Below are positions 1,869-23,310 of a stretch of 64,000 nt of DNA, piece after piece. The first letter of the stretch is position 1. Each line of letters starts with the position of its first letter. The notes beneath the pieces are model-generated. The model worked only from the letters and a program-made list of their open reading frames with translations. It ran no database searches and was not told where the DNA came from. The stretch is taken from assembly GCF_039535115.1 (NCBI RefSeq), contig NZ_BAAAWO010000001.1, positions 3,534,001 through 3,598,000 on the forward strand, written 5' to 3'. This DNA comes from Paeniglutamicibacter sulfureus (GTDB taxonomy: Bacteria; Actinomycetota; Actinomycetes; Actinomycetales; Micrococcaceae). A program made the position numbers and the translations under genes.

Positions 1869-3221
1869 ATGAGCATCAAGGAACAGCTGGCCCCGGCCGG
1901 CACCATCCAACGCACCGAGCCTGCCGCGCACGGGGCACCCGGGCAGTCCACCTTCAAGACCCTGCTGGGCATTGGCGCCGGCAACGCCGTGGAATGGTTC
2001 GACTGGGCCATCTACGCCACGTTCGCCTCCTTCATCTCCGGCCAGCTCTTCTCCAAGGCCGACCCGACCTCCGCGTTCCTGGCCACCATGGCGATCTTCG
2101 CAGTCGGCTTCGTCGCCCGCCCCTTCGGCGGCGCATTCTTCGGCCTGATCGGCGACAAGGTCGGCCGCAAGTCCGCCATGACCATGGCCGTGGGCCTGGC
2201 CTCGCTCGGTTCGCTGATCATCGCGATCACCCCGACCTACGCCAGCATCGGGGCCGGCGCCTCGCTGATCTTGCTGGTGGCCCGGCTGTTGCAGGGCCTG
2301 GCGCACGGCGGCGAGATGCCCAGCGCGCAGACCTACCTCGCGGAGGTGGCCCCTGCCCCGAAGCGCGGGTTCTACTCCACGCTCATGTACTTCTCCGGGA
2401 CCGCCGGCATCGTTGCCGGAACGCTGCTCGGGGCCATCCTCACCGTCGTGCTGACCAAGGAACAGATGGGTGCCTTCGGCTGGCGCATCCCCTTCGCCGT
2501 CGGTGCGCTGATGGGTCTGTACACCCTGGTCATGCGCTCGCGCCTGAAGGAGACCGAGCAGTTCGAGGAGCAGAAGTCGGCCAAGGCCGCGGCCGCCACC
2601 AAGGGACCCTCGGTCTTCTCACAGATCATGGCCAACTGGCGCCAGGCGGTGCGGGTCATTGGCCTGACCGTTGGGTTGACCGTCGTCTACTACATCTGGT
2701 CCGTTTCGACCCCTGCCTACGCGATCGCCAACCTGAAGATGGATCCGGCAACCGCGCTGTGGACCGGCGTCGCCGCCAACCTGGTGTTCATGACGGCCCT
2801 GCCGTTCTGGGGGAAGCTTTCGGACCGCATCGGCCGCCGTCCGGTTCTGCTCATTTCGGCACTGGGTGCCGCGGTGCTGCAGTTCCCGATGTCATCCCTG
2901 GTGCGCGGTGAGGCATGGCAGCTGTTCATCGCCATGTCGGTGATGCTCATCTTCATCGCCGCCTCCGCCTCGATCGTTCCGGCCGTCTACGCCGAGCTGT
3001 TCCCCACCGCGATCCGCACCATCGGCGTGGCCATCCCCTACGCCATCGCCGTGGCGGCCTTCGGCGGCACCGCTGCCTTCCTGCAAGCCGGGTTCAACGC
3101 CTGGTTCGGTATCCCCACCGGCGGAACGGTCTTCGCGATCTACTCCATCGTCCTGCTGCTCATCAGCGCGCTCACCATCTACAAGATGCCCGAGTCCGTG
3201 GGCAAGGACCTGCGCGGCTAG
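1869..3221 (+). CDS. MFS metabolite:H+ symporter (MHS/KgtP-like)
   Basis: A 450-residue, 12-helix transporter. The opening G-N-A-V-E-W-F-D-W-A-I-Y in helix 1 and the loop G-x-x-G-D-K-V-G-R-K-S-A are hallmarks of the metabolite:H+ symporter branch, which includes alpha-ketoglutarate, proline/betaine and shikimate permeases. A second loop (G-K-L-S-D-R-I-G-R-R-P) marks the start of the second six-helix half. The start at 1869 is preferred because translation further upstream gives basic, non-conserved residues. It probably imports an organic acid or amino acid and is probably controlled by the divergent Lrp-type gene. Substrate unknown. Confidence 0.9.
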   Translation: MSIKEQLAPAGTIQRTEPAAHGAPGQSTFKTLLGIGAGNAVEWFDWAIYATFASFISGQLFSKADPTSAFLATMAIFAVGFVARPFGGAFFGLIGDKVGRKSAMTMAVGLASLGSLIIAITPTYASIGAGASLILLVARLLQGLAHGGEMPSAQTYLAEVAPAPKRGFYSTLMYFSGTAGIVAGTLLGAILTVVLTKEQMGAFGWRIPFAVGALMGLYTLVMRSRLKETEQFEEQKSAKAAAATKGPSVFSQIMANWRQAVRVIGLTVGLTVVYYIWSVSTPAYAIANLKMDPATALWTGVAANLVFMTALPFWGKLSDRIGRRPVLLISALGAAVLQFPMSSLVRGEAWQLFIAMSVMLIFIAASASIVPAVYAELFPTAIRTIGVAIPYAIAVAAFGGTAAFLQAGFNAWFGIPTGGTVFAIYSIVLLLISALTIYKMPESVGKDLRG

Positions 3222-19488: not shown

Positions 19489-20262
19489 ATGAGGGTGAGT
19501 GTTCTCGGCGGCAGCGGAAACATGGGCAAGCGGGTCGTCGGCCTGTTGCAGGAGGCCGGCCACGACGTGGTGGTTGCGAGCCGTTCATCGGGCGTTGACG
19601 CCTACACGGGATTTGGCTTGGCGGTGGCGCTGCGCGGTGCCGATACCGTGGTGGACTGCCTGAACATGACATCGGTCAACGCGCGAGCCTGCATAGATTT
19701 CCATGAAACCACGGCCAAGAACATCATTCGCTCCGCGGAGCAGGAAGGCGTCAAGCACCTGGTGTGCATCTCGATCATCAATGCCCGCAATCCGGAGGTC
19801 AACCGGCGCATGGGCTACTACCGGGGCAAGGCCGCGCAGGAGGCCCGCTACCAAAACGCCAAGATCCCCACGACCATTGTTCGTTCCACCCAGTGGTTCG
19901 AGCTGGCCGAGACCTTGCTGGACCAGATGAAAATCGGGCCTGTGGCGGTGGTGCCGCATATGCATTGCCAGCCGGTCGCGGCCGATGCGGTGGCGCAATT
20001 GGTTGTTTCCATGGCCGAGGCGGGGTCGGACGCTCCGGCTGGAGTTGAACTTGCAGGTCCCGAACCCCGCAACATGGCCCGGCTGGCGCGCCTTGTTGCC
20101 AGGAGCAACGCCGCCGCGAACCACCGTGGGCCGCATCCCCGCGTCATTGGCGTCCCGGTGCCGGGAATGAAGGCGTTGAACGGCGGGCTGCTCCCCGCCA
20201 ACGCCGTCCGTACTGATCCAACGACCTTTGAGCAGTGGCTGGCCAACGGCCGCAGAGCCTAG
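19489..20262 (+). CDS. NAD(P)-binding NmrA/SDR-a-like protein
   Basis: 257 residues opening with M-R-V-S-V-L-G-G-S-G-N-M-G-K-R-V, an atypical-SDR Rossmann loop. No Y-x-x-x-K catalytic pair is seen in the expected place (Y-Y-R-G-K occurs at about 105), so it could be either a reductase or a redox sensor of the NmrA type. The C-terminal half (V-E-L-A-G-P-E, P-G-M-K-A-L) matches proteins annotated as SDR or NAD(P)H-binding. It stands alone after the PAP2 gene with a 90-base gap. Confidence 0.75.
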   Translation: MRVSVLGGSGNMGKRVVGLLQEAGHDVVVASRSSGVDAYTGFGLAVALRGADTVVDCLNMTSVNARACIDFHETTAKNIIRSAEQEGVKHLVCISIINARNPEVNRRMGYYRGKAAQEARYQNAKIPTTIVRSTQWFELAETLLDQMKIGPVAVVPHMHCQPVAADAVAQLVVSMAEAGSDAPAGVELAGPEPRNMARLARLVARSNAAANHRGPHPRVIGVPVPGMKALNGGLLPANAVRTDPTTFEQWLANGRRA

Positions 20263-20287
20263 GTTGCCCCTTCCAGTCACTCCGCAC

Positions 20288-21184
20288 CTATGCGAGCCGG
20301 AGTGGCCGAACGCCGAGCTGGATGCTGACTTCCTGTCCCCACGAGGCGGTGAGGCGGTCCTGCTCCATGCCGTCGCCAAACACCACTAGTTGGTCCGACG
20401 CCACGGTGAGGCGCAGCGGTTCGTTTGCTTCAAGCACGCCTTCCGTCAGGGACGTCCCCGTGATGGGGGAGGGCCACGCTTCGCGGACAAACCAGGCCAG
20501 TCGGGGGTCCGTCGGGGCCGGCAGTGGCCGACCTCCGCGTTCGAGGGCTATGGAGGCGCACCATCCGGTGGCGCCCGTTCCGGTGGAGACGATGAGCCCG
20601 GACGAAGAGTGCCTTTCGGTCCGTCCGTCCGGAGTCGTGAGCTGGTAACGGGCAGACTGGTGGGAAGGGTGCCCGATGAAAATCTCGTTGAGCCCCGACA
20701 GTTCCTGACCGTCGTCGAGCCGCGCCGTCACCATGGCAAGTTCCCGGCAGCGCAGCGCAATCCTGTCCCCGTCAGGGGCGGCGTTCTGCAGCAGCCGTAC
20801 GGCATCCGCGGTGGTGTGCCGGACCAGAACGCCCGGATTCATTCCCGGTTCCGGGTCGATCCCGATGACGGGCTGTCCGGTGAGGTACTTGGCCACATTG
20901 GCCACGAGTCCGTCCTGGCCCACGACGGCGATGACGTCCTCGGCGGTGAACAGAAACCTGCCCAGGTCTGCGCGTTCCACCTCGGCGCGGCGCCAGTCGG
21001 GCGGCGCCGCGGCGCGGATGGTTGCCAGCGCCGCGCCGAGCAACTCGTGGCGCGCCTGGACAGCGGCAAGGGTTCGGCCCCGGGTGCCAAGAAAGAATTC
21101 GGTCTGGCCGAGCGTGGCGTGCCGGTCCAGCAATTCCGCCAGCTCGGTGCGCCGATGGACGATGACGAGGCGAGGTGTTGCCAT
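20288..21184 (-). CDS. NAD kinase-like protein with altered GGDG motif
   Basis: 298 residues. The core matches the NADK/diacylglycerol-kinase fold: V-V-G-Q-D-G at 87-92 stands where NAD kinases have G-G-D-G, then V-I-G-I-D, L-N-E at 165-167, and S-S-G-L-I-V-S-T-G-T-G-A-T-G at 194-207. The first Gly of GGDG is Gln, while the Asp needed for catalysis is kept. It is therefore a divergent member, either an NAD kinase paralogue or a kinase for a related nucleotide. The SPFH gene ends eight bases upstream, so the two form an operon, divergent from a NrtR-type regulator, which suggests a place in NAD metabolism. Confidence 0.8.
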   Translation of the reverse strand: MATPRLVIVHRRTELAELLDRHATLGQTEFFLGTRGRTLAAVQARHELLGAALATIRAAAPPDWRRAEVERADLGRFLFTAEDVIAVVGQDGLVANVAKYLTGQPVIGIDPEPGMNPGVLVRHTTADAVRLLQNAAPDGDRIALRCRELAMVTARLDDGQELSGLNEIFIGHPSHQSARYQLTTPDGRTERHSSSGLIVSTGTGATGWCASIALERGGRPLPAPTDPRLAWFVREAWPSPITGTSLTEGVLEANEPLRLTVASDQLVVFGDGMEQDRLTASWGQEVSIQLGVRPLRLA

Positions 21185-21192
21185 GGCCGGGA

Positions 21193-22212
21193 CTACTTTC
21201 CGCCGGTGGCCGCGGCGCCCGGCTCCCGAATCAACCCGGCCAGTGCCCCGCTGAGCAGGTCCGGGGTGACGGTCAGGTTACCGATGTTCGGCAGCGAGCC
21301 GGCGGCCTCGCGGACCGCCAGAGCCAGCAGGGTGGCCTGGTCCATGCCCCGGTAGGCCTCCATGGCGGCGGCTTCCCGTGCTGCTTCCGCCTCGCCCACC
21401 AAACGGATCCGGTTGGCCTCGGCGGTGGCGCCGATGCCCCGGCGTTCGGCTTCCGCATTGGCCTGGATCAGGCCGGCGGCGGCCTGTTCCTCGGCTTCGC
21501 GCCTGGCGTTGGCACCCTCTTGGGCCACGAGGTGTTCGCGCCGGGAGGCCAGTTCGATCTGGCTGGCCATCTCGTTCTCCGAGATGGTCCGTTCGCGTTC
21601 GACCGCAACTGCCCGGCGTTCGTACACGGCACGGTCGGCCTCGGCCTGCAGTTGTTCGCGGACCGGTGTCTGAAGCGCCCGTTCGACCTCGGACTCCGGC
21701 CGGACGGCGAGGACCTGTACGCCGAGGATCTCGATACCGGTGGACACCAGCCGGGTATCGGCGCTCAGGGCCTCGGTGAGGAGGTTGCGAAGCTCGCTGA
21801 CGCCGTGTTCCAGCGACTGGGCGAGCGTGGTGGTGGCGATGTGGTCGATCGCGTGGCTCTGGCAGAGCTGGCCGATGATGGTGGTCACCTGCTCCTTGCC
21901 GCCGGAGGTTGCCGGGCCCGCCTGCTGGAGGGCGAAGTCGAGCCGGCTGGCCACGGACACCGGGTCCACGAAGCGGTAGGTGACGTTGGCCTGGACGCTG
22001 ACGTCCTGGTGGTCGCGGGTGATGGCGTGGAAGAGCGTGGGTAGTTCCTGGTCGTCGACGGGAACCTCGCTGAGTACGGATGACGCCGGCCGGAACCAAA
22101 ACGCCTGGCCCACACCCTGGTGCCTGACGGCGCCCTTTTGCAGGTGGACAACGTAACCGGTGGGGCTGCCCAGGAAGTGGCTGATCCAGGGGTAGCGCTT
22201 GATGGTGGCCAT
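21193..22212 (-). CDS. SPFH/band-7 domain protein
   Basis: 339 residues. It has the SPFH domain (about residues 20-190: P-V-D-D-Q-E-L-P, then V-S-V-Q-A-N-V-T-Y-R-F-V-D-P) followed by a long Glu/Ala/Arg-rich coiled coil (190-300: R-R-A-V-A-V-E-R-E-R-T, then A-E-A-E-R-R-G-I). This is the stomatin/prohibitin layout, but there is no N-terminal transmembrane helix, so any membrane contact must be through the domain surface or partners. GAGGAG is positioned about nine bases before the ATG at 22212. It is the first gene of an operon with the NAD-kinase-like gene and lies under two palindromes shared with the divergent NrtR-type gene. Confidence 0.88.
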   Translation of the reverse strand: MATIKRYPWISHFLGSPTGYVVHLQKGAVRHQGVGQAFWFRPASSVLSEVPVDDQELPTLFHAITRDHQDVSVQANVTYRFVDPVSVASRLDFALQQAGPATSGGKEQVTTIIGQLCQSHAIDHIATTTLAQSLEHGVSELRNLLTEALSADTRLVSTGIEILGVQVLAVRPESEVERALQTPVREQLQAEADRAVYERRAVAVERERTISENEMASQIELASRREHLVAQEGANARREAEEQAAAGLIQANAEAERRGIGATAEANRIRLVGEAEAAREAAAMEAYRGMDQATLLALAVREAAGSLPNIGNLTVTPDLLSGALAGLIREPGAAATGGK

Positions 22213-22239
22213 GGCGGGGGTTCTCCTCAAACTTCACTT

Positions 22240-22260
22240 TTGTCGTCACTTTGACGATAA
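22240..22260. promoter_or_regulatory. NrtR-type operator box 1
   Basis: A 21-bp dyad with arms TTGTCGTCA and TGACGATAA around CTT; 8 of 9 arm positions are symmetric. It lies 28 bases upstream of the SPFH start. Confidence 0.65.
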
Positions 22261-22284
22261 GACGAGCGTAGGGTGCTTACTGAA

Positions 22285-22305
22285 TTATTGTCAACATGAC
22301 GATAA
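22285..22305. promoter_or_regulatory. NrtR-type operator box 2
   Basis: A 21-bp dyad with arms TTATTGTCA and TGACGATAA around ACA; 8 of 9 arm positions are symmetric. The right arm is identical to that of box 1, and the centres are 45 bp apart. It ends 17 bases before the Nudix regulator start. Confidence 0.65.
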
Positions 22306-22322
22306 GTATTTATGATGGGTGC

Positions 22323-23057
22323 ATGCCTCAATCCCATCCGGAGCCCACGCGCTTCCCGGTGACGGTGGACATCGTCGCCCTCACCGTCCGCGACGATGCC
22401 CTGAACGTCCTGCTGATCACCCGCCTCATCGAGCCGTTCCGCGGCAAGCTCGCGCTGCCGGGAGGGTTCGTGCTTGCCGGAGAGGGCCTGGGGGAGGCTG
22501 CGATCCGCGAGCTGGCGGAGGAGGCCGGGGTCGAGCAGGTCCCGGGGCACCTGGAGCAGCTGCAGAGCTATGGGCCGAAGGGGCGTGACCCGCGCGGGGA
22601 TGTGCTCACCGTGGCCCACCTGATGCTGGCGCCCAACTTTCCCGTATTGTCCGCCGGAAGCGACGCCGAGCACGCCGCTTGGTATCCGGTCAGCCACGTT
22701 CTGGAGGGGGAAACCGAACTTGCCTTCGACCACGGGCGCATCCTGGCCGATGCCGTGGAGCGGGCGCGGTCAAAGCTCGAGTACTCGCCGCTGGGGGCGG
22801 CGTTCTGCGGGGAGGAGTTCACCATCGCCCAGCTCCGCGCCGTGTATGAGGCGGTGTGGGGCACCCGCCTGGATCCCCGGAACTTCCACCGCAAGGCCAC
22901 GGGAAACCCCGGTTTCCTCGAGGACACCGGCCGAATGACCGCGGGCGACGCCGGTCGCCCTGCGGCGCTTTTCCGGCTCGCGCCGGCGGCCCGTTCCGCG
23001 GCGGGAGAACCAGTCCGGGCGGTGCTCAACCCGCCTCTCATGCGGCCTCGCCCTTAA
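22323..23057 (+). CDS. NrtR-type Nudix transcriptional regulator
   Basis: 244 residues. The N-terminal Nudix domain has an intact Nudix box at 48-70 (G-F-V-L-A-G-E, then R-E-L-A-E-E-A-G-V), so ADP-ribose or related hydrolysis is possible. The C-terminal part (about 165-205: F-T-I-A-Q-L-R-A-V-Y-E-A-V-W-G, N-F-H-R-K) is the winged-helix module of the NrtR family, which represses NAD-metabolism genes and senses ADP-ribose-type ligands. Two palindromes lie in its own promoter, shared with the divergent SPFH/NAD-kinase-like operon. Start at 22323 because upstream in-frame codons fall inside box 2. Confidence 0.85.
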   Translation: MPQSHPEPTRFPVTVDIVALTVRDDALNVLLITRLIEPFRGKLALPGGFVLAGEGLGEAAIRELAEEAGVEQVPGHLEQLQSYGPKGRDPRGDVLTVAHLMLAPNFPVLSAGSDAEHAAWYPVSHVLEGETELAFDHGRILADAVERARSKLEYSPLGAAFCGEEFTIAQLRAVYEAVWGTRLDPRNFHRKATGNPGFLEDTGRMTAGDAGRPAALFRLAPAARSAAGEPVRAVLNPPLMRPRP

Positions 23058-23173
23058 TGGTCGGCGCCGCCGACAAGAACTGTGAGCGTTGCCCCCCCGG
23101 CGTCGCCAAACGAGGAATCTTGCGAGAATTTTGTTGGCGTTGCGTTGCTGTGAGGTCAATTTCCGGGCAAAGC

Positions 23174-23218
23174 AAAAGGCCCCGAATCCCTTGTTTAGAG
23201 GGGAATCGGGGCCTTTTT
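23174..23218 (-). terminator. Terminator after tRNA-Ser(CGA)
   Basis: AAAAGGCCCCGAATCCC pairs across a short loop with GGGAATCGGGGCCTTTTT directly behind the 3' end of the tRNA. It has T-runs on both sides, so it may also stop the regulator transcript from the other strand. Confidence 0.85.
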
Positions 23219-23219
23219 C

Positions 23220-23310
23220 TGGCGGTGACGGAGGGATTTGAACCCTCGGTACGGGGTTACCGTACACAACATTTCGAGTGTTGCACCTTCGGCCGCTCGG
23301 ACACGTCACC
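23220..23310 (-). tRNA. tRNA-Ser (anticodon CGA)
   Basis: The 91-base gene includes an encoded CCA end. The acceptor arms GGTGACG and CGTCACC pair, the T-loop GGTTCAAATCC is present, and a long variable arm (GTACGG/CCGTAC type) marks a class II tRNA. The anticodon loop CTCGAAA gives CGA, read as serine (UCG codons). Confidence 0.95.

Follow-up and report, generated by a model that had tools for sequence, protein, structure and literature searches.

An NrtR-type regulator, an SPFH protein and an NAD-kinase-like protein: a recurrent three-gene set behind a predicted double operator

What does a regulator of the NrtR type do next to an SPFH protein and a relative of NAD kinases? This question is raised by a stretch of 64,000 nucleotides from Paeniglutamicibacter sulfureus (contig NZ_BAAAWO010000001.1, positions 3,534,001 to 3,598,000; the window), where nrtR on the plus strand is divergent from an SPFH gene (spfh) followed by an NAD-kinase-like gene (kin), both on the minus strand. 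To our knowledge, a partner enzyme or an inducing signal has been assigned to few SPFH proteins; the tight gene pair and the predicted double operator described here suggest candidates for both in one such protein. Computation yielded the cassette, its double operator, the overlap with promoters, the link between motif and regulator, and predicted NAD-kinase and SPFH folds. Co-travelling genes behind a conserved double switch point to a module for NAD control, and the locus is probably an NrtR-controlled, horizontally spread SPFH-kinase cassette serving this purpose.

Recurrence of the gene set

The genes of the cassette and the flanking tRNA gene are, in window coordinates:
20288..21184, minus strand: kin, NAD-kinase-fold gene, NADK2-like, motif GQDGLVAN, 298 amino acids (from fold and sequence matches)
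21193..22212, minus strand: spfh, SPFH/Band_7 gene, 339 amino acids, predicted helix 174-288, no evident transmembrane segment
22323..23057, plus strand: nrtR, Nudix domain and winged helix, 244 amino acids, complete Nudix box
23220..23310, minus strand: tRNA-Ser(CGA) at the border of the insertion site, in the flank outside the cassette

An earlier note on this DNA had described a Nudix helix-turn-helix gene divergent from an SPFH gene and an NAD-kinase-like gene, which gene positions and, for the regulator and the SPFH protein, Pfam matches bore out, and had asked for a search for the same three genes and dyads in other genomes. Loci from named genomes were collected with the kinase-like protein as query, and the best 80 of 290 confirmed stretches were compared, a sample that leans to close, non-independent relatives. 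The search found the gene order and strands of the window again in 73 of these 80 loci. Five loci contain spfh but no regulator match (L069, L086, L091, L092 and L102; the contig is cut there in three of them), and two have neither spfh nor a regulator beside the kinase, one being a cut contig (L105) and one having a partial kinase (L057). A fixed fourth gene was not seen: among the members listed, gene clusters common to more than 4 of 32 loci all overlie the three genes, open reading frames in other frames included.

Across 296 genomes of the phylum, the kinase was found in 12, its own genome counted (E 1e-8), and this SPFH protein in 13 (E 1e-20), among them all 12 kinase genomes; the SPFH-kinase pair is therefore close to obligate. 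NrtR relatives occur in 23 genomes (E 1e-40), including 10 of the 12 with the kinase. The spfh and kin frames are adjacent or overlapping in 73 of 76 loci, and this closeness together with the co-occurrence suggests that both proteins may form a complex.

A predicted double operator and its probable regulator

Between the divergent genes we predicted the following sites:
22240..22260: proximal operator, on the spfh side (from dyad scan and comparison of loci)
22285..22305: distal operator, whose right arm on the minus strand holds the spfh -35 box
22289..22294, minus strand: spfh -35 box TTGACA, inside the distal operator
22265..22270, minus strand: spfh -10 box TACGCT, 18 nt after the -35 box
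22288..22293, plus strand: nrtR -35 box TTGTCA, inside the distal operator
22311..22316, plus strand: nrtR -10 box TATGAT, six bases before ATG 22323

Both dyads are 21 bp long, differ by one mismatch each from TTATCGTCA-N3-TGACGATAA and have the same right arm on the plus strand. Dyad matches in 100 shuffles of the window had a mean of 0.00, and scan and shuffles thus upheld the earlier description of two dyads with a common right arm and 45 bp between their centres. The consensus used for scanning came with the earlier note and is close to the window's own sites. With up to three mismatches allowed, the whole 4.57-Mb genome contains only the two window dyads and one site with 3 mismatches; a wider regulon in this genome was rejected, no further site lying within 2 mismatches.

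Elsewhere, the dyad pair was present upstream of spfh in 74 of the 78 best-80 loci that have SPFH, and in 86 of 91 loci when 13 loci from further genomes were included. This larger set comprises the 78 and 13 others, after removal of L004, L017, L019, L020 and L022 (duplicates of one genome) and of L015/L016 (G259). The pair is missing in L007, L069, L091, L092 and L102, of which L091 and L092 are cut contigs. G259 carries a broken, distant copy with no dyad site within 5 mismatches; with this copy counted, the total would be 86 of 92.

Measured between the two best sites of each locus, the dyad spacing is 33 bp (n=11), 34 bp (n=38), 44 bp (n=6) or 45 bp (n=31), with none between. The two classes are 11 bp apart, roughly one turn of the helix. 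To account for this step, at least two changes must be placed on the kinase tree: one in the Micrococcaceae group and one in G023 and G193 within a genus that we call g8 (probably Streptomyces; its genomes have about 74% GC and its loci resemble Streptomyces plasmid loci). The operator, its spacing having shifted by one turn on at least two occasions, is a clean example from nature of helical phasing.

The spacer of the distal dyad ends in a T forming TTGA in 74 of 74 cases, versus a T at that place in 27% of proximal dyads. In 85 of 86 loci a TANNNT hexamer comes 17 or 18 nt behind the spfh -35 box. Where the spacing is short (49 loci), the left arm of the proximal dyad itself forms this -10 box, which therefore gives no independent evidence; in the long-spaced loci it lies between the dyads in 37 of 37, where other offsets are nearly empty of TANNNT except 28/29, at which the proximal dyad supplies it.

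On the other side, the first ATG of the nrtR frame (22296) falls inside the distal operator. Because TATGAT lies six bases 5' of ATG 22323, we place the likely start there; nrtR is probably leaderless. The placement of TANNNT before nrtR start codons in other loci leads to the same view: it is found 5-8 nt before a start codon of the frame in 71 of 74 loci, and without the window in 70 of 73, compared with 24 of 2920 shuffles. The regulator would have a palindromic site at its own and at its target promoter, as is typical of NrtR.

The strongest indications that NrtR reads the dyad motif come from genomes in which the genes are separated. All 7 kinase-carrying genomes of genus g8 have the operon dyads while their NrtR matches lie elsewhere, and in 7 of 7 a dyad-like site with 3 mismatches stands shortly before the best or near-best NrtR match, an arrangement that connects this regulator with this motif. 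In four g8 loci that were read, NrtR is 53-55% identical to that of the window and the site lies just 5' of the start. Conversely, G214 has the SPFH-kinase pair, and neither an NrtR match (E 1e-40) nor the dyad pair was found there. The dyads might instead be bound by another regulator, NrtR being a mere neighbour, and the 3 mismatches of the site before the displaced nrtR would fit this; given that the site nevertheless stands just before nrtR in all seven genomes where that gene is far from spfh-kin, and given G214, we consider it highly improbable. Regulation of spfh-kin by the neighbouring NrtR via two dyads, as the earlier note had proposed, is well supported by comparison of gene order, dyad pairs and displaced nrtR sites.

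At places other than spfh and the main nrtR, the seven g8 genomes contain another ten sites with 2-3 mismatches. One dyad-like site (G246:C26:11850) precedes a second NrtR match by 73 bases; the surroundings of three others, at 3070 and 9509 of L161 and at 3011 of L162, yielded no assignment.

The three proteins and the spread of the cassette

The regulator shows an N-terminal Nudix domain (Pfam NUDIX, 2.9e-15) and a C-terminal winged helix (NrtR_WHD, 1e-15), both above cut-off. It scored 106 bits against the curated equivalog NF050029, whose cut-off is 400, and we therefore do not claim equivalence to that particular NrtR. The Nudix box of the window protein is complete. Regulator proteins could be extracted for 57 of the 73 loci; by pattern the box is complete in 53 of the 57, three differ at the last glycine, and L044 is complete on reading. 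In a wider set it is complete in 62 of 65 rows, partial and duplicate rows counted. An intact box suggests that the regulator may also consume its ligand. The same genome encodes a second NrtR of this family (G000:C1:1083660, L106) with NadA as the next gene. It is 37% identical to the cassette NrtR over 216 columns and has a degenerate Nudix box, unlike the cassette protein. Near it, TTAGTGTCATATTGACC resembles one half of the cassette dyad, the half-site TTAGTGTCA departing from the cassette half-site at two positions.

The kinase-like protein had no Pfam match at E 0.01, and its NCBIfam matches were to NAD kinases only, all far below cut-off. Its predicted model has the NAD-kinase fold, which justifies the earlier label "NAD-kinase-like", and the closest match in both sequence and fold is human mitochondrial NADK2 (7r4j-7r4m, 7n29), the likeness taking in the SSGL..TGTG region. 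NADK2 acts on NAD. The GGDG motif of NAD kinases is replaced in all 102 kinase-like sequences, by GQDG in 93 and GPDG in 9 (duplicates and fragments counted); among the best 80 loci the numbers are 74 and 6. As GGDG is missing, we class the protein as NAD-kinase-like only. Eleven kinase sequences, from Treponema to Actinobacteria, all keep the motif Asp, the LNE/VND-motif Asn and the DG near the C-terminal end without variation.

The SPFH protein matches Pfam Band_7 (E 5.8e-15, 56.2 bits with a cut-off of 23.6), and its model consists of an SPFH domain followed by a single long helix (residues 174-288). No hydrophobic segment of sufficient length and strength for a membrane span was detected (top 19-residue hydropathy mean 1.25), so that the term "membrane-scaffold-type" of the earlier note found no support in this form. 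Membrane association is common though not general among SPFH proteins, and this one may still bind membranes peripherally. The model also matches the vault cages 9mxj and 9bw6, solved with ADP-ribose and with PARP4, perhaps through a shared fold only.

A kinase recorded for P. sulfureus is 98% identical to that of the window. Within the genus, the kinase occurs in 5 of 13 other genomes, one copy being broken. In the window the cassette is flanked by an SDR-type gene on one side and tRNA-Ser(CGA) on the other (stretch 20262-23310), and in eight relatives (L149-L156) this gap is empty or filled with the cassette, a decayed cassette or other DNA. G303 has the cassette, G296 is empty, and in G299 the kinase alone is left; in G297 and G306 the SDR-type gene and tRNA-Ser are separated by some 2.4 kb of other DNA. 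G301, G304 and G308 showed no SDR match, and their next gene lies 1.0-2.6 kb from the tRNA. Relatives of the kinase were found in 64 records of a plasmid collection, some of them chromosome-sized and all less than 60% identical. Phage origin was rejected: there was no kinase match in 50,697 phage records, and 0 of 28 pattern hits in viral contigs were confirmed.

Annotation or reading of the DNA gives the order NUDIX-SPFH-kinase for Providencia, Rhizobium, Methylomonas and Proteus; the pair stands without an adjoining annotated NUDIX gene in Treponema, Roseomonas, Kitasatospora and one Streptomyces plasmid. Upstream of spfh, Providencia (L110 3849-3948) has four sites of the form TTANNGTC-N5-GACNNTAA and Proteus (L113 3867-3947) three, all with 0-2 mismatches; Methylomonas has only two, with 3 mismatches each. 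In E. coli no blastn match to the Proteus spfh-kinase DNA was found. In the kinase tree a kinase from a Chloroflexota metagenome-assembled genome groups among Actinobacteria, at weakly resolved forks. In the same tree the kinase of L056, recorded as Sporosarcina beigongshangi, is nearly that of G330 (Micrococcaceae); this contig may reflect contamination or very recent transfer.

Proposed role and comparison with known systems

From these elements we infer how the cassette might work. NrtR dimers would occupy both helically phased operators in the gap that separates the divergent genes. Of these, the distal one overlaps the predicted spfh -35 box and, in the window, also that of nrtR, while the proximal one overlaps the predicted spfh -10 box at a spacing of 33/34 or sits just behind it at 44/45, as in the window. 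Since operators and promoters overlap, NrtR would repress both spfh-kin and its own gene from one double operator. NrtR would be released by a Nudix ligand, the likeliest being ADP-ribose set free when NAD is broken down, a signal that is carried over from other NrtR proteins. The induced pair, a cage-type SPFH protein and an NADK2-type enzyme, would work jointly to control NAD(P), the enzyme phosphorylating NAD(H) or a closely related ADP-ribose compound. With its complete Nudix box, the NrtR of Actinobacteria may hydrolyse its own signal, which would shut the system off again. A bolder version, which we regard as quite unlikely, is an ADP-ribose-triggered mobile emergency module for cells losing NAD, in which an SPFH cage would hold or dock a divergent NADK2-type enzyme, the product would be NADP or a new phosphorylated ADP-ribose compound, and the repressor would destroy its own signal. 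With a candidate enzyme and signal to work from, what an SPFH protein and a bacterial relative of NADK2 do can be put to a direct test.

Several observations weigh against a cassette for NAD control under NrtR. NrtR relatives also occur in 13 of the 296 genomes without the kinase, so NrtR has further jobs. The SPFH-kinase pair stands without an adjoining NrtR match in Treponema, Roseomonas, Hamadaea (L102) and L069, the broken G259 copy and L102 have no dyad pair, and the Rhizobium locus has no site of the form seen in Providencia. Confidence in the SPFH model is only moderate (pTM 0.49), and over the whole length its fold matches score low (TM 0.29-0.47 by query). With Gln or Pro at the second glycine of GGDG, NAD kinase activity would not be assured, and the same genome already encodes a standard NAD kinase. 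These last two points, together with scores nowhere near the cut-offs of all curated NAD-kinase models, would also fit a protein that is no NAD kinase and phosphorylates another nucleotide (e.g. ADP-ribose or a nicotinamide nucleotide) or serves as a non-catalytic NAD(P) sensor on the SPFH assembly. This is a tangible possibility, which we lean against in view of the invariant Asp, Asn and DG residues and of NADK2 as the nearest relative.

The patchy presence in phylum and genus, the variable tRNA-Ser site and the plasmid-collection records could alternatively indicate an accessory island for defence or stress: ADP-ribose set free by NAD-cleaving toxins or defence systems would lift NrtR, and the SPFH-kinase pair would protect or restore the NAD(P) pool. 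We hold this to be unlikely, as no recurrent neighbour of any kind and no phage or viral-contig copy was found. A known defence system found no support either: against the PADLOC library, which contains described systems only, there were just three weak hits (E 0.0049 or worse), none convincing.

The pair has probably been named or noticed before, because one kinase relative (P0228, Providencia heimbachae) bears the name NrtY in UniRef. NrtY is 35% identical to the window protein, belongs to the same kinase family and shares GQDGLVAN, and in Providencia alcalifaciens NUDIX, SPFH and kinase genes stand in the same order as in the window. The Nudix boxes of four aligned Proteobacterial regulators are degenerate, unlike that of the window NrtR. 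The pair was reportedly named in the 2008 NrtR work of Rodionov. Among the matches listed, we found no paper in the open-licence literature describing the three-gene set, nor, in the literature searched, a description of the cassette of Actinobacteria, of its double operator with phased dyads, of the kinship with NADK2 or of a function.

The window SPFH protein shares an SPFH domain and a long helix with cage-forming relatives (HflK/C, erlin, stomatin, prohibitin, flotillin, vault) but, unlike these, has no evident membrane segment. Its gene partner encodes a kinase-fold protein, whereas PMC2636767 gives NfeD as a common gene partner of SPFH proteins.

The known targets of NrtR are genes of NAD biosynthesis and salvage, whereas the predicted target of the cassette NrtR is the SPFH-kinase pair. 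NrtR regulons as portrayed by Gao 2019 (eLife, PMC6800001) combine, as the cassette is predicted to, a Nudix domain and NrtR winged helix with a palindromic, auto-regulated operator placed between divergent genes; for M. smegmatis, the operator has the form GTTTTCGA-N7-TCGAAAAC. The NrtR of M. smegmatis is inactive as a Nudix enzyme. The cassette differs from known NrtR regulons in that its predicted operator is doubled and helically phased and its regulator has a complete Nudix box.
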